The notes beneath the pieces were generated by a model. That model worked only from the letters and a program-made list of their open reading frames with translations. It had not been told where the DNA came from and ran no database searches. Shown here one piece after another: positions 15,406 through 38,415 of a stretch of 64,000 nt of DNA. Position numbers and translations under genes: made by a program. Position 1 is the stretch's first letter, and every line of letters starts with the position of its first letter. The DNA lies in NCBI RefSeq assembly GCF_000159995.1, contig NZ_GG700643.1, forward strand, positions 861,195 to 925,194. Reading direction: 5' to 3'. Source of the DNA: Alloprevotella tannerae ATCC 51259. GTDB taxonomy: Bacteria > Bacteroidota > Bacteroidia > Bacteroidales > Bacteroidaceae.

Positions 15406-15424
15406 TTCTATTTTCTTTGTGTTT

Positions 15425-15486
15425 CGATTTCACCTAAATTCTAAGTTTGCAATTCATATTGCAAACTTAGAATTTAGGTGAAATCG
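15425..15486. repeat. perfect 28-bp inverted repeat hairpin
   Basis: Positions 15425-15452 are perfectly complementary to 15459-15486, with a 6-nt centre that can pair once more. The arms begin CGATTTCACCTAAATTC. It lies between the traG fossil and the WG-repeat lipoprotein gene. It could be a strong terminator, a MITE-like hairpin or a recombination scar. There is no long T tract. Confidence 0.85.
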
Positions 15487-15561
15487 GAAAAGAAGTAAAA
15501 GGAAATGGATACTTCAACAGATGCGGTACAACGATATTGCATGAAATTAAAAAAGAATGAA

Positions 15562-16815: not shown

Positions 16816-17010
16816 CGTATCGCACGTGCAGGCCAAACAAGCAATACTTACAAACTAATTTGGCGAAAATCTACGTATGAGGTGATTATAAAAAGAAATT
16901 TCCTCTCCAAAACTTATGTGTATAGAGAATCTTCTTTTTACGATTTTAGCGCCTGGAGCCTCTTCTACATGTTCACTCCGACGCTTTGCGGTCCGGCATA
17001 CGGAACTATA

Positions 17011-17262
17011 CAAAAAAAGATCGTTGTAAAATTAAGGTTTTACAACGATCTTCTGCTTTTTGAAGGCTTATTTGAAGACCCTCGTGAAGGCTTTCTGAAG
17101 CCTATCAGCGGAGAGAGAGGAAAATGAACCTTTTTCTCAACTCCTTGTATCATAGCAATTTATACTTTCCAGTTTTCTCTCTGTAACCAAATTGTAGCCA
17201 CAAGAGAGTATTTTGAGAGTACCCATAGATACTGTTATGAGAAATACACACTTGTATTTATC
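17011..17262 (-). ncRNA. candidate small RNA or tiny-ORF transcript of about 250 nt
   Basis: A complete reverse-strand transcription unit with no ordinary gene in it: a consensus promoter at 17268-17299 and a perfect terminator at 17017-17052. The implied RNA is about 250 nt. It contains an inner hairpin (AGGCTT/AAGCCT) and a possible 37-codon frame (17153 down to 17040, starting MIQGVEKKVHFPLSP and ending SKSRRSL) whose stop lies inside the terminator stem. Either the RNA itself is the product or it encodes a small basic peptide. I do not recognise it as 6S, SRP, tmRNA or RNase P RNA. It sits at the probable left edge of the conjugative element. Confidence 0.5.
17017..17052 (-). terminator. 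strong intrinsic terminator, 15-bp stem
   Basis: AAGATCGTTGTAAAA (17017-17031) is perfectly complementary to 17038-17052. On the reverse strand it is followed by seven T residues (complement of 17011-17017), an ideal intrinsic terminator. On the forward strand the following T tract is weaker (CTGCTTTTT). Confidence 0.85.
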
Positions 17263-17267
17263 GCGTT

Positions 17268-17299
17268 CAAAGGTACAAAAAATATGAACTGCCGCCAAA
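17268..17299 (-). promoter_or_regulatory. consensus promoter on the reverse strand
   Basis: Read on the reverse strand: TTTG (complement of 17296-17299), 20 nt, then TACCTTTG (complement of 17268-17275). This matches the Bacteroidetes consensus exactly. The sequence GTACCTTTGA also resembles the GTAnnTTTGC core used by CTnDOT-type integrases (last base differs), so it could be an attachment site as well. Confidence 0.65.
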
Positions 17300-17340
17300 T
17301 ATTTGATTGAAAATCTTTTAGAAAGATTCCGGCTACAATT

Positions 17341-17392
17341 TCAGTGCACGGTGCAAGCCCTTATATATAAAGGGACTTGCACCGTGCACTGA
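17341..17392. repeat. perfect 17-bp inverted repeat with extended stem
   Basis: TCAGTGCACGGTGCAAG (17341-17357) is perfectly complementary to 17376-17392. The inner CCCTT and AAGGG extend the stem past a single unpaired base, around a TATATA-like loop. It lies about 130 nt before the first gene of the conjugative element. Apart from this and the promoter/terminator pair, the gap 16816-17522 holds no gene I can support. Confidence 0.8.
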
Positions 17393-17522: not shown

Positions 17523-18002
17523 ATGGATAAGAAGATGATACCTCAAAAGGGAGAGGGACGCTTGTTTATCGTGCTTCCCACTCTTGAAATCATGCTGTCT
17601 TCTTGCAACAACAGCAAGATGAGAGCCCAAGTTGCCGATATGGAGTATTCCAACTTCAGAAAGCATTGCAAGATGCAGACAGATTTGAGAATTGACACCT
17701 ATACCAAATGCGCCTCCGCATTCGACATGGATGTACTTCTTTTGCATCTTCCCAAAGGAATGATAGAATCTTTGGTACATACCACCGAAGATAAAGACCA
17801 TCGTTTCTTCACAATTGAGAAGGAAGACCTCATCTTTTTGTTGAACAGGCTCTGTCAGGTAGATCACAAAAGAATGATTCAACATATCATACTTCTTGCC
17901 AACCGTATAGTAAAAAAGCAAGACAACCTATCTACATTTCGTAATTTAATGGCAGCTATTGAGGAACTTATCCAAAAACTGATGCGTGATGACAGAGAAT
18001 AA
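17523..18002 (+). CDS. conserved hypothetical protein, first gene of ICE left module
   Basis: A 159-residue soluble protein, rich in charged residues and helical in its C-terminal half (MIQHIILLANRIVKKQDNL). No known domain was recognised. The N-terminus has a weak hydrophobic stretch (RLFIVLPTLEIMLSSC) that could mimic a lipobox but is preceded by charged residues, so export is doubtful. It overlaps the next gene, an HTH protein, by 14 nt and heads a four-gene operon (HTH, primase-helicase, HTH). In comparable elements an integrase gene often precedes this module; none is visible here. Confidence 0.6.
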   Translation: MDKKMIPQKGEGRLFIVLPTLEIMLSSCNNSKMRAQVADMEYSNFRKHCKMQTDLRIDTYTKCASAFDMDVLLLHLPKGMIESLVHTTEDKDHRFFTIEKEDLIFLLNRLCQVDHKRMIQHIILLANRIVKKQDNLSTFRNLMAAIEELIQKLMRDDRE

Positions 18003-32307: not shown

Positions 32308-32324
32308 ATTAGTTATTGAATCTA

Positions 32325-32936
32325 ATGAACAAAAAAGAAGAAAGGAGAAACAATATACTCTTGGGAGCATTCAAACTCTTTATGTCCAAAGAGTATGCAA
32401 ATGTTACAACTTCTGATTTGGAAGAGGTGACAGGAGTATCAAGAGGCGCTATCTATTATAAGGTGAAGAACAAAGATGGCTTATACAGAGCTGTCATTGA
32501 CAAGTTTGTCTTTAATCTTATAGTGGATTCTCTGAACAGGGATATATCCGTTTCGCAAAAGACTCCGTTTTGGGACTTTATTATGAATGAATTAGAACTT
32601 ATCCGGAGCAGAATGAGCCTGATCAGAAAATCGAATATAGACGCAACTGCTGCACAGTATCTCAACTTGCTGTCTTCTGCTTGCTTTCACTATGAAGGAT
32701 TTAAGGATAAGAGCAAGGATTTGGAGAGGGATATTTTGAAATTATGGTTAAACTATTTTCATAAAGGAGTTAAGGCAGGAGAATTAAAAAAAGATGCCGA
32801 CCCGGACTTGGCTATTTCAACATTTCGCTCCCTCTACTATGGAGATGCATTCAGTTTGTCCATCATCGGAGGTGAATTGGATATTGAAAGCCTAAAAAGG
32901 AAATACTTACTATTATATAATACCATTCGTCTATGA
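32325..32936 (+). CDS. TetR/AcrR family transcriptional regulator
   Basis: A 203-residue repressor from ATG 32325 (an upstream TTG adds three residues). Residues about 5-55 form the TetR helix-turn-helix: RRNNILLGAFKLFMSKEYAN, VTTSDLEEVTGVSRGAIYYK, and NKDGLYRAVIDKF. The remaining helical domain would bind a ligand and dimerise. It overlaps the KAS III gene by four bases (ATGA), so it probably regulates that gene and itself through the palindrome at 32294. The likely ligand is an acyl or lipid compound, by inference from the partner. Confidence 0.88.
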   Translation: MNKKEERRNNILLGAFKLFMSKEYANVTTSDLEEVTGVSRGAIYYKVKNKDGLYRAVIDKFVFNLIVDSLNRDISVSQKTPFWDFIMNELELIRSRMSLIRKSNIDATAAQYLNLLSSACFHYEGFKDKSKDLERDILKLWLNYFHKGVKAGELKKDADPDLAISTFRSLYYGDAFSLSIIGGELDIESLKRKYLLLYNTIRL

Positions 32937-34069
32937 AGAATATTTATATCAACCAAGTCTCATCTTTCCTACCCAACAAGCCTGTCGGCAATGAGGAAAT
33001 GGAGAATTATATCGGCCTGATTGGTGGAAAGCCATCAAGAGTGCGTTCAATCGTCCTCAGGCAAAACGGAATTAAAACGAGGTATTACGGGCTGGACAAG
33101 CAGCATAAAATGACCCATTCCAATGCACAGCTTGCAAAAGAAGCGGCAGAGGGTTTATTTGCCGATAAAACAATACCCGAAAACGTAACACTTCTGGCTT
33201 GTGCTACAAGTACTCCGGATCAGTTGCTCCCCTCACATGCCTCTATGGTCCATGGAGAGTTGGGGAATTTCCCGATGGAGATATTTTCATCTGCGGGAGT
33301 GTGTCTGACCTCATTGCAAGCTTTGAAGATTTGCTATAGTAATATTCTTGCGGGATTGCATAAAAAGGCAGTTTGCGTAGCTTCTGAGCTGACTTCTCCT
33401 GCGTTAGTGTCGAAATTCTATGATCCCGAATACGAAGCGACTCACGAAAATCCGGACAAAGATCCCTATATGGCTTTCGAAAAGGATTTCATGAGGTTTA
33501 TGTTGTCAGATGGTGCGGGGGCTGTATTAGTACAAGACCATCCCGAAGGGAACACTCCTTTGAGAATAGAATGGATTGAAATGACCTCATATGCCAACGA
33601 ACTGCCTACATGTATGTTTATGGCATCAGAACTACAAGCTGATGGACGTTTGAAGAGTTGGAAAGAATTTACTCCCGATGAAATCAAAGAACGAGGAGTA
33701 CTTGTAGGGAAACAGGATATTCGCCATTTGAAAAAGTTCGCCATTAAGTATTGGGTAAATCACATAGAAACAGTACTTGCCAAACATAATGTAAAGCCAG
33801 AGGAAATAAACTGTGTGATACCCCATCTTTCCTCTATGCTCTTCTATGATAAACTGAACGATGAATTTCTTGCTCGTAAAATAGCTCTGACAAAGGAAAA
33901 ATGGTTTGTCAATCTTCCTTCTGTAGGAAATGTCGGGTCGGCGGCTATTTATGTGGCTCTGGAGGAGCTCATAAGGACAAAGGAAATTAAACGTGGAAAC
34001 AAGATACTTCTTCTTGTACCGGAGAGTGGCAGGTTCTCATACGGAACAGTGCTGCTTACAAGTGAATAG
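32933..34069 (+). CDS. 3-oxoacyl-ACP synthase III (KAS III) family protein
   Basis: A 378-residue thiolase-fold condensing enzyme. The catalytic triad of KAS III is present: Cys124 in SSAGVCLTSLQ, His298 in VIPHLSSM and Asn333 in PSVGNVGSAA. Standard KAS III has PHQAN at the histidine, so this is a divergent member, perhaps of the type used for special lipids or resorcinol/polyene-like products rather than housekeeping FabH. No other lipid-synthesis gene is next to it, and it is coupled to a TetR gene. It seems to be cargo of the conjugative element. The product cannot be named from sequence. Confidence 0.82.
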   Translation: MKNIYINQVSSFLPNKPVGNEEMENYIGLIGGKPSRVRSIVLRQNGIKTRYYGLDKQHKMTHSNAQLAKEAAEGLFADKTIPENVTLLACATSTPDQLLPSHASMVHGELGNFPMEIFSSAGVCLTSLQALKICYSNILAGLHKKAVCVASELTSPALVSKFYDPEYEATHENPDKDPYMAFEKDFMRFMLSDGAGAVLVQDHPEGNTPLRIEWIEMTSYANELPTCMFMASELQADGRLKSWKEFTPDEIKERGVLVGKQDIRHLKKFAIKYWVNHIETVLAKHNVKPEEINCVIPHLSSMLFYDKLNDEFLARKIALTKEKWFVNLPSVGNVGSAAIYVALEELIRTKEIKRGNKILLLVPESGRFSYGTVLLTSE

Positions 34070-34176
34070 CTGAACTTTTGCCGGAATTCTTTGCAAGAAT
34101 ATCAAAATAGAATTATAGTAATATGAATAAGCGTGTATATTAGCACATTAATGTTTAATTTAATAAAAAAAGAACT

Positions 34177-36882
34177 ATGGAAAAGAGATTCAAATTTTTA
34201 TTCCTGTTGCTTTGCTGTCTGATTAGTTCTTCAGCAATTGCACAGCAGCGACTACGCAATGTCTCAAAACAAGAGGCATTTTCCCTTGTCAAGGATTATT
34301 TCTCGGGACAGGATGTTGATTATTATCTTTGCGAGGATCCCGTTCTTAAAATTGAAGGGGAAAATAATTTCCCCGATCCATCTCAGAGCGGTACTTGGAC
34401 ATTTTTCGTGGATGCCGAACCGATGAAGGGTTGGGAACATGACTGTTACATCGTTCGTGTTGTAAAGAGGATAGGGGAATATCAATCTCCCGCAACTCAA
34501 TCGACGAAGTTCCGTCTTCCGCCTATGGGAAACTTCTCTCCGTTGGAAGTCAAGAATCGTTATGGGATAAAGGCAAATCAAAAACCTTATGTGAAAAAGG
34601 AAACTCTTTCTAATGAGGCTAAAAGTGCTGCCGGACATACCTATGCGGTAATCCTAAGCGGAGGGCATAACCCCTTTTCCAACTATGAGCGTTATTGGAA
34701 TGACTGTTCTTTCGTTTACCAAACATTGGTAAATAAATACGGTGTTCCAAAAAACAACATCGCAGTAGTGATGTCCGACGGAACAAACCCTGCAGAAGAC
34801 ATGCATCTAACGACCGGAGGCTACAAATCATCTCCATTGGATCTGGATTATGATGGCTGGCCGGACATAAAGTATGCTGCCACACGTACCAATGTAAGAC
34901 ATATTCTCTCAGACCTTTCTCAAAAAATGACAAAGGATGACCATCTCTTCTTCTATGTAATAGACCATGGAGGTACAAGGGACAATAAAAACCAGTCTTA
35001 TATTTGTTTGTGGAACGGGGAATCCCTGCACGATTATGAGCTTGCAGATTGGCTTCTCCCGTTCAATCAAAAATCCATTTATGTCAATGCAGTATTAGGA
35101 CAGTGCTTCTCGGGCGGTTTTATAGAGGAATTGACGAAAGTGGGATGCGTTGTGGCAGCAGCTTCTGAAAGCGACAAATCTTCATACGGCTGTTATGACA
35201 TTCCTTACGATGAGTTTGTTTATCATTGGACTTCTGCCATAAATGGAAAAGATGCTTATGGAAAGCTAGTGGCTTCTGATGTTGATAATAACAATAGGGT
35301 GACAATGGATGAAGCTTTTACGTATGCCAAACTGAAAGATCGTGCACCGGAGTATCCTCAATACAAATCTAATCCTATATCCGTTGGAGAGGACTTGGCC
35401 TTCAACAACTTACCAGAGGCTGTTGATCTTTATATTAAAGACAATGACGAAGACACGGGAAAAGAGCCGAATCTGACAACTAAGGAATTTTGGAAAAGTC
35501 CAGATATCTGGGTGAGAAATCAAAAAGACGGCATACAGGAACATGAAAATCCCTACTATTCAGATGATCATATTGCATGTCTTGTATATGTAAGGGTTCA
35601 TAATAGGGGAAAAGAAGATTTTAATGGCGTTGGGAAATGGATACATGTTTATTGGGCACAGGCTTCTACTGGGTTAACTATCAAGGCATGGAAAGGAAGA
35701 GAATTATATGAAAATCATATCTCAGGAGATCATATAAGGGCTGTGCCAATACCTTATATACCTGCTGGAGAAGATAGAGAAGTTTCTATAACTTGGGGGA
35801 TACAAGAAGATATGGTACATTACCAAAGTGATAATGGTACGGAAAAACATCATTACTGTCTGATAGCAAGAATCTTAGATTCTCCCTATGACGACAGTTA
35901 TGATCCCAAGAAAATCTATTTCGACGTTCTGGGAAGTAATGATATTGCACAAAAAAATATTTCAATAGTGAGCAGACGAGAATTATCAAAAGGAATATCA
36001 GTATTTGTTCGTAATATTTATGGAAACAGTCACAAATATTCTCTTGAGATCCGAACTCCAACGGAAAAAGATAAGTTGCTGTTTACCAAGGCAAATGTAA
36101 AGATGAAGATGGCAAAACCCATCTATAAGGCTTGGGAACGTGGAGGTCTCCAAGCAACAGATATAGTTTATAATCCAACAGCTTCTCCATATAGTGTAAA
36201 ATTAAATTCGTCCAGCAGTAAGTTGGAAAATATCTGTATGAATGGGGCCGAATTTGAGAAAGTAACTATGAATTTTGATTTCCACACTTCTTCAACAGAC
36301 TCAAACGAGAAGTACACTTTCGACTTGATACAAAAAGATGAAACAGGCAATATAGTGGGAGGAGAAACTTTTATAGTTGAATCTCCATTACACAGTCATC
36401 AGGGTATCGAGATTACCCCCATTGATCTCGGGGATGGTAGGTATAAACTCTCAACAGATTGGCAGGAAACAGACCGAATCCTCTGGACAGATGCTGTTGG
36501 TTCAGATGTGGGGACGGGAAATAACATTACTGTAACTCCTACATTGACAAATAATAAGTTCTCAGCTATCGCTATATCTTCTCAAGGAGAAATGGCTCAG
36601 GAGACTATTACTTTGGAATCTAAAACCGGATTTAAGTCGATTAGCCCAACACCGGTCGAAGATTTTATAGACATAGAACTATGCAGTCCTGTTAAATCAG
36701 GAAACGCTGTACTTAGGGTAAACAGCTTAACACAGGCAGGTAGTATCTTGTTGAGCAAACATATTCCTTTAGATGCCAAAAAGATACAACTTAATGCAAC
36801 ATCTTTGCCAAGTGGTATATATGTACTTACCTATTTTGTAGATAATCAAATTGTCGACAGCAGAAAGTTCAGCAAGAAATAG
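34177..36882 (+). CDS. secreted C13 (legumain-like) cysteine peptidase with T9SS tail
   Basis: A 901-residue exported protein. A signal peptide covers about residues 1-22 (cut near AIAQQ). The caspase-like C13 domain spans about 150-400: YAVILSGGHNPFSNYERYWN, a VYQTLVNKYGVPKNNIAVVM segment, then catalytic His264 in YVIDHGGTR and Cys310 in LGQCFSGGFIEEL, followed by CVVAAASESDKSSYG. The middle part is beta-rich. The last 80 residues (ISPTPVEDFIDIELCS to VDSRKFSKK) form a type A T9SS sorting domain. It would be exported to the cell surface and cut proteins after Asn or Asp-like residues, by family analogy. It lies in the cargo block ahead of four LRR surface proteins; a strong terminator follows. 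Confidence 0.88.
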   Translation: MEKRFKFLFLLLCCLISSSAIAQQRLRNVSKQEAFSLVKDYFSGQDVDYYLCEDPVLKIEGENNFPDPSQSGTWTFFVDAEPMKGWEHDCYIVRVVKRIGEYQSPATQSTKFRLPPMGNFSPLEVKNRYGIKANQKPYVKKETLSNEAKSAAGHTYAVILSGGHNPFSNYERYWNDCSFVYQTLVNKYGVPKNNIAVVMSDGTNPAEDMHLTTGGYKSSPLDLDYDGWPDIKYAATRTNVRHILSDLSQKMTKDDHLFFYVIDHGGTRDNKNQSYICLWNGESLHDYELADWLLPFNQKSIYVNAVLGQCFSGGFIEELTKVGCVVAAASESDKSSYGCYDIPYDEFVYHWTSAINGKDAYGKLVASDVDNNNRVTMDEAFTYAKLKDRAPEYPQYKSNPISVGEDLAFNNLPEAVDLYIKDNDEDTGKEPNLTTKEFWKSPDIWVRNQKDGIQEHENPYYSDDHIACLVYVRVHNRGKEDFNGVGKWIHVYWAQASTGLTIKAWKGRELYENHISGDHIRAVPIPYIPAGEDREVSITWGIQEDMVHYQSDNGTEKHHYCLIARILDSPYDDSYDPKKIYFDVLGSNDIAQKNISIVSRRELSKGISVFVRNIYGNSHKYSLEIRTPTEKDKLLFTKANVKMKMAKPIYKAWERGGLQATDIVYNPTASPYSVKLNSSSSKLENICMNGAEFEKVTMNFDFHTSSTDSNEKYTFDLIQKDETGNIVGGETFIVESPLHSHQGIEITPIDLGDGRYKLSTDWQETDRILWTDAVGSDVGTGNNITVTPTLTNNKFSAIAISSQGEMAQETITLESKTGFKSISPTPVEDFIDIELCSPVKSGNAVLRVNSLTQAGSILLSKHIPLDAKKIQLNATSLPSGIYVLTYFVDNQIVDSRKFSKK

Positions 36883-36897
36883 TTAATTTTATTCTTG

Positions 36898-36926
36898 GCA
36901 ACAGGAGAAAGATTTTCTCCTGTTGC
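36898..36926 (+). terminator. terminator after the C13 peptidase gene
   Basis: GCAACAGGAGAAA (36898-36910) pairs perfectly with 36914-36926 (TTTCTCCTGTTGC), loop of 3 nt, then TGTTTTAC. It separates the peptidase from the LRR tandem. Confidence 0.85.
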
Positions 36927-36957
36927 TGTTTTACTTGCAATCTAAAAAATTACAATC

Positions 36958-38415
36958 ATGAAAAGAATAATACTTTTGTTACTACCTTTTGTATTTGCCT
37001 ATTCTCAAAAGGTGTGGGGGCAGGTCAATTTCTTCGATGCCAATGTGAGCAAGTGCGGAGAGTTGGAGCAAGTCTTGGGGGAGAAATGGGACAAGATAGA
37101 TTCGCTGATTGTGCATGGTTCCGTCAATGAAGCTGACTTTACGACTATGTGGAAATGCAGCTTTGAGGGGAAGCTAACTGTATTGAATTTGGAGGATTCG
37201 CAGGTAGAAAACAATAAGATACCTACGCGTGCACTTTATAAGGCTGATAGGCAGGTTATTGATGACCCGAGAGCGTATCAGGGCGTGGTTTACCTCCCAC
37301 TCCGCCACATCATCCTTCCTGAGGGAATTCAGGAAATTGGAGACTTTGCTTTCTCAAGGATGAAATTAGAACAAATAAACCTCCCCAAAAGTTTGAGAAA
37401 GCTTGGTCGTTTCAGTTTTTCAAGCTGCCATTGGTTAAGTACCGACCCGTTGATTATCCCGGAAGGTGTAACGTCTATTCCATCACAATGCTTTGTAAAT
37501 TGCCAATGCTTCAAGAAATTGATGCTACCCTCTACTATTAAGATAATTGAAGGATTTGCTTTCTACAACACAAGAGTGGAAGAAGTAAACTTTCCAGAGG
37601 GATTAGAGCTTATTAAAATTGCAGCTTTTGATGGGTGCGACTTGATGGAAGCAATATTGCCAAGTACTCTTAAAGAACTGTCTGATTTTACCTTTTCCAT
37701 GTGCCCTAAATTACAAGAAATCAAGATTCCTGAAGGGATTACCAAGATCCCCTTTGCCTTTGCTTCTTGGTGTCGATCATTGGAAAAAGTGAATATCCCC
37801 AAGAGTGTTACAGTAATAGAGGATGATGCTTTCGGAAGCGATGTAAAACTCAAATCGATAGACTTGCCCGAGGGATTAAGACATATTGGGAAAGATGCTT
37901 TTTGGGAATGTGCAGTTGATTCCATTATATTTCCAGCTTCACTAGAATATTTAGGCGCAGGGAGTTGTGCAAATTGGGAAAATGTCAAAAAGATATATTC
38001 CCTCTCTCCTAACCCTCCTTGTTGTGCAGCTGATAAGGAAGGAAAGCATAAAACATTTCATGGTATCACTCCCAATGACATTCCCGTCTACGTTCCCATC
38101 GGCTCAGGAGAAAAATATCGTCAGGCTTTCGGCTGGAACTACTTCACGAACATCATTGAAACGGACAAGTTCCCAACCGGAATAATGTCGCCTAAGATGG
38201 GCAATAACGAACTATGTAAGGTATATGGGAAAGACAACGAACTCATAATAGAAATTCCTAATTTGCTCTCATCGCCTATTCATTATTCCATTTACAGTAC
38301 AAAGGGAACTATGATAGAGCAAGGCAACCTCACAAAGTCTTATACATTAAAAATGCCTTCAAAGGGTGTCTATATTGTACGTGTTGGAAATACTACACAT
38401 AAAATATTCTTGTAA
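36958..38415 (+). CDS. BspA-like LRR_5 surface protein, copy 1
   Basis: A 485-residue secreted protein; signal peptide about 1-21 (cut near VWGQV). The first 100 residues are a shared head (FFDANVSKCGELEQVLGEKW, KIDSLIVHG). From about 110 to 380 there are about ten LRR_5 (BspA) repeats of 22-24 residues such as LPEGIQEIGDFAFSRMKLEQ and KEIKIPEG..KIPFAFAS. Then the typical VYVPIGSGEKYRQAFGWNYF block, and a C-terminal sorting-like domain (IIEIPNLLSSPIHYSIYSTK to HKIFL). BspA-type proteins bind fibronectin, other host proteins or partner bacteria. It is the first of four tandem paralogues; its last 235 nt and the 57-nt spacer match copy 3 almost exactly. Confidence 0.88.
   Translation: MKRIILLLLPFVFAYSQKVWGQVNFFDANVSKCGELEQVLGEKWDKIDSLIVHGSVNEADFTTMWKCSFEGKLTVLNLEDSQVENNKIPTRALYKADRQVIDDPRAYQGVVYLPLRHIILPEGIQEIGDFAFSRMKLEQINLPKSLRKLGRFSFSSCHWLSTDPLIIPEGVTSIPSQCFVNCQCFKKLMLPSTIKIIEGFAFYNTRVEEVNFPEGLELIKIAAFDGCDLMEAILPSTLKELSDFTFSMCPKLQEIKIPEGITKIPFAFASWCRSLEKVNIPKSVTVIEDDAFGSDVKLKSIDLPEGLRHIGKDAFWECAVDSIIFPASLEYLGAGSCANWENVKKIYSLSPNPPCCAADKEGKHKTFHGITPNDIPVYVPIGSGEKYRQAFGWNYFTNIIETDKFPTGIMSPKMGNNELCKVYGKDNELIIEIPNLLSSPIHYSIYSTKGTMIEQGNLTKSYTLKMPSKGVYIVRVGNTTHKIFL

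Follow-up and report, generated by a model that had tools for sequence, protein, structure and literature searches.

The outward-facing promoter Pcirc of the Pseudomonas element ICEclc is constitutive (PMC6561031) and appears in PMC2892462 as the promoter from which the intB13 transcript is made. Conjugative transposons residing in tRNA genes are described in Prevotella intermedia, where CTnPi2-b and CTnPi3 were shown to excise as circles (PMC4755523). CTnDOT of Bacteroides encodes RteR, described as a 90-nt trans-encoded RNA that affects tra expression (PMC7366714). A search of the open-access literature turned up no description of an outward promoter for tRNA-gene conjugative transposons.

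Here we analyse a 64,000-nucleotide stretch (the window, C5:861195-925194) of the 2.6-Mb genome of Alloprevotella tannerae ATCC 51259, at a locus whose named relatives are from Prevotella and close genera. An earlier note had picked out an unexplained 250-nt transcription unit on the minus strand at 17011-17299, and its account of the parts was borne out: an exact TTTG-N20-TACCTTTG promoter at 17299-17268, a terminator with a perfect 15-bp stem (17017-17031 pairing with 17038-17052) followed by seven T residues, no ordinary or longer gene between the two, and a 37-codon frame (17040-17153) that stops inside the terminator stem. The looser pattern TTTG-N19..21-TANNTTTG has six matches in the window compared to 1.03 expected from shuffles; a single match to such a pattern is modest evidence for a promoter, and conservation of the promoter is strong evidence. 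Folding gave z = -5.6 for the whole unit and z = -2.3 for the leader alone, the strong fold of the former being owed largely to the terminator hairpin. The Rfam search that had been proposed, run at gathering and relaxed thresholds, yielded no family at its gathering score and no credible match for the unit. We consider it likely that this place is a junction of two ICEs, with a unit that is rebuilt at nearly every insertion and a Pcirc-like outward promoter; the apparent 250-base gene would be a seam, at which a short hybrid RNA is probably made. The features are listed in the table.

Table. Features of the ICE junction and its surroundings (positions in the window).
Feature	Position	Strand	Remarks
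Intrinsic terminator, within second-ICE remnant	17011-17054	-	
Remnant of integrase-side end of a second ICE	17007-17107	-	~74-83% identity to integrase-side ends in L008, L010, L012, L013, L031
37-codon frame, judged not a gene	17040-17153	-	Spans core; not conserved
Attachment core CCTCTCTCTCCGC, repeats tRNA-Ser 3' end	17108-17120	-	Two homologue sets part here; second copy ends tRNA-Ser(GGA), C5:930140
Putative integrase arm sites ACTCTCAAAATACTCT and GGCTACAATTTGGTTACA	17182-17220	-	Shared with integrase-side ends of this genome's related ICEs
Hairpin immediately 3' of predicted transcription start	17242-17259	-	Place kept, sequence changing
Outward-facing promoter TTTG-N20-TACCTTTG, far end of first ICE	17268-17299	-	Exact consensus; 23/23 intact far ends and second far-end family
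Inverted repeat upstream of promoter	17341-17392	.	Kept at all intact far ends read
Small protein gene, 159 aa, without family match; marker of first-ICE far end	17523-18002	+	
Rest of first ICE in window: primase/helicase, methylase-helicase, topoisomerase, MobB, MobC, TraG, TraJ and TraN genes	17986-64000	.	

Judged by its sequence, the first element is a tRNA-targeting tyrosine-recombinase ICE of Bacteroidales, with an integrase gene by a tRNA 3' end, core repeats and conjugation genes. It measures 51.8 kb, from the core at 17108-17120 to a tRNA-Ser(GGA) gene at C5:930140, beyond the window end, and CCTCTCTCTCCGC is present at both places. Inward of the C5:930140 core, an intrinsic terminator lies 46-77 nt on and the integrase gene starts 380 nt on; this integrase next to tRNA-Ser(GGA) (L014) has Phage_integrase, Phage_int_SAM_5 and Arm-DNA-bind_5 domains. 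Since the tRNA-Ser(GGA) core and the integrase gene are at C5:930140, the 17011-17299 unit sits at the non-integrase end (hereafter, the far end) of the first ICE. Models for MobB, MobC, TraG, TraJ and TraN matched between the two ends, where a primase/helicase gene is found too. Joining both flanks in silico produced the order tRNA-Ser(GGA)-core-terminator, which is the arrangement seen where an ICE of a second family occupies tRNA-Ser. The same genome (G000) has another far end of the first-ICE family at C5:634.0k, and two further integrase-side ends with similar arm motifs at C5:23.2k and C5:1024.9k, one of them at tRNA-Ser(TGA). The ICE cargo at 32316-38415 includes a TetR-family regulator, a ketoacyl-synthase-III-like protein, a C13-family peptidase (901 aa) and BspA-type leucine-rich repeat proteins.

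DNA homologues were sought with the minus strand of window 16990-17320. The promoter side alone was matched by another copy within this genome, by G005 and by a plasmid record of P. nigrescens (99.5% over 213 nt); matches to the terminator side only were at two places in G033, in P. nigrescens F0103 and in Prevotella sp. oral taxon 299. The two sets meet exactly at CCTCTCTCTCCGC (17108-17120), and in several matches a complete tRNA-Ser gene (GGGGGTTCGAATCCCTCTCTCTCCGC) has this sequence as its 3' end. At two loci (L008 and L013) an ICE integrase gene begins ~310 nt downstream of the tRNA-Ser end, and a tandem in Segatella buccae has a far end, a core and a second ICE end in succession, with the second integrase frame starting 311 nt on. 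By homology, then, this place is the junction of two tRNA-targeting ICEs, with the promoter from the first and the terminator from a remnant of the second, whose identity in the window rests on the only ~100 bp remaining. Left of 17007, further remains of the second ICE were sought with no DNA match and two weak translated matches, both to one locus; phage records gave no match. The native region downstream of tRNA-Ser is a less likely source of the terminator, because the 100-bp stretch matches ICE integrase-side ends at two tRNA-Ser genes of one genome, in P. nigrescens F0103, in Prevotella sp. oral taxon 299 and in S. buccae, and because, where no such ICE is present, tRNA-Ser(GGA) genes are followed by different hairpins. 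The LRR protein on the left flank was tried as an anchor for finding empty sites and given up, its paralogues being too many. Also left of the junction, at 15411-15500, is an inverted repeat of 43 bp, with 88% complementarity around a centre of 4 nt.

To compare far ends, these were gathered by the 17523 marker protein or by DNA similarity, never by the promoter pattern. Twenty-three were intact, the window included, and came from Segatella, Hallella, Hoylesella and Prevotella records, further genomes of that family and one from a different family in the order. L076, which lies at a contig end, and L083, which has lost its far end, were excluded, and L069 duplicates L031. An outward TTTG-N20-TANNTTTG was present in all 23 (with CTTG as the first box in two), though the conservation statistics are inflated by the common ancestry of these ends. 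In the alignment, the promoter boxes are invariant or nearly so and adjacent bases vary. The distance from the -7 box to the core end is 159-162 nt in 18 of the 23, 151 nt in four that have another core, and 138 nt in one. DNA past the core, on the other hand, differs by target, the cores ending in TCTCTCTCCGC, GTACGCACCGC or close variants, or in SAGSTCCAC. A terminator at most 110 nt past the core, scoring above all 40 shuffles, was found in 20 far ends, and three were without a clear one; most tRNA-Ser(GGA) genes of the genus that lack such an ICE have a hairpin of their own directly downstream, as read by eye. What is conserved is hence the promoter half and not the promoter-to-terminator unit as a whole, and with the promoter constant and the terminator varying with the target, the unit arises anew from a promoter of the ICE and a terminator particular to the site.

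A sequence model of the promoter and leader also detected a second far-end family, with other putative arm sites, a similar inverted repeat and the same promoter, and a search with the end model of 393 order-level genomes found full-length ends outside Prevotellaceae-like kin in one genome only. The inverted repeat at 17341-17392 is near-perfect (GTGCACGGTGCAAG...TATATATA...CTTGCACCGTGCAC) and has the outward promoter on one side and the 17523 gene on the other. Far ends of both ICE families keep its sequence (GTGCAAGGTGCAAG in some), the genome analysed (G000) has no more than two copies, and the repeat may serve in replication, in priming or as an accessory site for recombination. Nine loci (L011, L035, L074, L077, L081, L082, L103, L104 and L115) have in common the post-core flank AA[AC]AAGGGTGTAAATC...GATTTAC[AG]CCC, which in L011 is followed by a gene for an Mpi-family serine recombinase, with the same frame start in L077, L081 and L103; this flank looks like a recurrent tandem partner at tRNA-Ser.

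The hairpin that follows the predicted start occupies a nearly constant place in most lineages with changing arms (AAATACA/TGTATTT, GAAATGC/GCATTTC, GAAACAC/GTGTTTC, AATGGCAT/ATGTCATT and AGAAGT/ACTTCT), and is poor in L084, L085 and L112. In an ungapped subset, both sides had changed in three of the seven hairpin pairs and the covariation was 0.340 compared to 0.184 in shuffles, being reached by 5 of 500 of these. Over 13 lineages the combined p was 1e-8, against 0.3 and 0.9 in two control stretches, values that common ancestry overstates. Most members of the second far-end family have a hairpin of another sequence (GAGAGC/GCTTTC). A hairpin that keeps its place, and a second family that shares promoter and hairpin but has different arm sites, suggest a real RNA, and we regard this evidence that the far end is transcribed as moderate. 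Compensatory changes lend the 5' hairpin moderate support and the remaining leader weak support; consensus folding of the full leader was weak. At 17108-17145, and at the same place in L002, L034, L075, L077, L081, L085 and L100, ICE bases preceding the core can pair with it like the acceptor/T-arm minihelix of a tRNA. These bases shift with the target (GGAG with CTCC, GGTG with CACC, GGAC with GTCC, GGAAG with CTTCC), and the pairing may be either a symmetry of the integrase site or an RNA feature.

As the comparison shows, the far end of the first ICE carries the outward promoter, the 5' hairpin and the putative arm sites, up to the core, and the terminator is past the core, in the second-ICE remnant. 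On the reading that we prefer, insertion at a tRNA-Ser gene joined the ICE promoter to this terminator, which was there beforehand. DNA past the core nearly always begins with a terminator because insertion is at the tRNA 3' end, where either the displaced tRNA terminator or that of a neighbouring ICE is found. A unit of roughly 190-265 nt is rebuilt in sequence at nearly every insertion, and is presumably transcribed. Such a unit would form in the excised circle as well, where the promoter would point at the integrase-side end of its own ICE and come upon a terminator ahead of the integrase gene. Just such a terminator lies past the core on the integrase-side ends read (L008, L010, L012, L013, L014, L017, L031 and L045), and should stop both read-through from the tRNA gene and the outward transcript. 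The path from promoter to integrase gene in the circle is not unobstructed, given the predicted terminator 46-77 nt past the core and the integrase start at 380 nt, and this argues against a simple promoter-for-integrase role. With that terminator in place, the output would be the junction RNA as such or the act of transcribing through the attachment site, unless termination is overcome under some condition. The likeliest role would be that of a Pcirc-like promoter, transcribing through the attachment junction while the terminator limits flow to the integrase gene or to flanking DNA.

A different possibility, which we hold to be rather unlikely, is a functional small RNA of the ICE, with a constant 5' domain (hairpin and leader) that acts in trans or on ICE transcripts and with the site-supplied terminator as its 3' end. 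The place of the hairpin is kept with compensatory changes, the promoter and, for the most part, the hairpin are found again in the second family, whose arm sites differ, most contexts supply a terminator, and mobile elements offer precedents in RteR of CTnDOT (PMC7366714) and in sgm-sRNA of SGI1 (PMC9299015). Nevertheless, the 3' half is unconserved, full-leader consensus folding is weak, and the rest of the leader overlaps the putative arm sites, which would account for its conservation without an RNA. An RNA of this sort would have a constant, structured 5' domain and take its 3' end from the insertion site (the tRNA 3' end plus its terminator) or, in the circle, from the integrase-side end of the ICE itself. 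The RNA or its transcription might report or control the integrated versus the excised state, a notion that we put forward tentatively and consider doubtful; if true, an example would be antitermination dependent on the 5' hairpin, by which transcription would get through to the integrase gene after excision and not before.

Less probable still is that the promoter-like sequence is part of the recombination site, bound by integrase, excisionase or a host factor, with nothing transcribed. Arm motifs and core do resemble recombination sites, and the near constant promoter-to-core spacing is as attachment-site geometry would have it, but the boxes stay invariant amid bases that vary, they are found again in a family whose arm sites differ, and they make up the complete sigma-ABfr consensus TTTG / TAnnTTTG (PMC7366714). 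A dedicated 250-nt gene native to the locus, for a small RNA or a 37-codon peptide, can be set aside as very improbable: promoter, terminator and frame all exist, yet the frame is unconserved and the halves have different relatives that part at the attachment core.

With two halves from different elements and only the 5' half conserved, the small-RNA proposal of the earlier note holds insofar as a conserved promoter is followed by a terminator and probably gives a short noncoding RNA at the ICE edge, and fails as to a self-contained dedicated gene. Its alternative, a peptide gene, is unsupported, since the conservation check on the 37-codon frame found 37, 28, 19, 38, 23 or 10 codons in relatives, with ACG or GTG as the start in some, and a C-terminal part that is unconserved and simply whatever DNA follows the core. 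The resemblance of the promoter to a CTnDOT attachment core is coincidental, the real core being CCTCTCTCTCCGC at 17108-17120. Integration does help to build the unit, but the further suggestion that the promoter may have been captured or remade by it is unsupported: sequence is unbroken across TACCTTTG in all relatives, with the recombination junction at 17108-17120 instead, and the promoter lies ~150 nt inside the ICE, constant across targets, while integration swaps the terminator. Creation of the promoter at a CTnDOT-like core is rejected, as the promoter lies inside the conserved ICE end.

An orphan promoter-terminator pair is in this way explained as a by-product of an ICE landing site, and a group of ICEs, mostly in Prevotellaceae, keeps an outward promoter and 5' hairpin opposite the integrase. 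If these are transcribed, different insertion sites would give different hybrid RNAs, and the circle would aim the promoter at the integrase side, in a simple, testable switch. The case also cautions that a promoter and a terminator at element borders can mislead small-RNA gene calls.

Compared by description, RteR is likewise a short noncoding RNA of a Bacteroidales conjugative element, but, as described in PMC7366714, not a unit spanning an attachment junction. CTnPi2-b and CTnPi3, again by description, come from the same bacterial group and are likewise conjugative elements housed in tRNA genes, for which the accessible part of the report describes no outward promoter or junction transcript (PMC4755523). 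Pcirc of ICEclc appears to be the best analogue: phylum and promoter type are different, and here, from sequence alone, a terminator is predicted to separate the core from the integrase gene and the start is followed by a conserved 5' hairpin, but in both the promoter, a predicted one here, is at the end opposite the integrase gene, points outward across the attachment site and would face the integrase side after excision.
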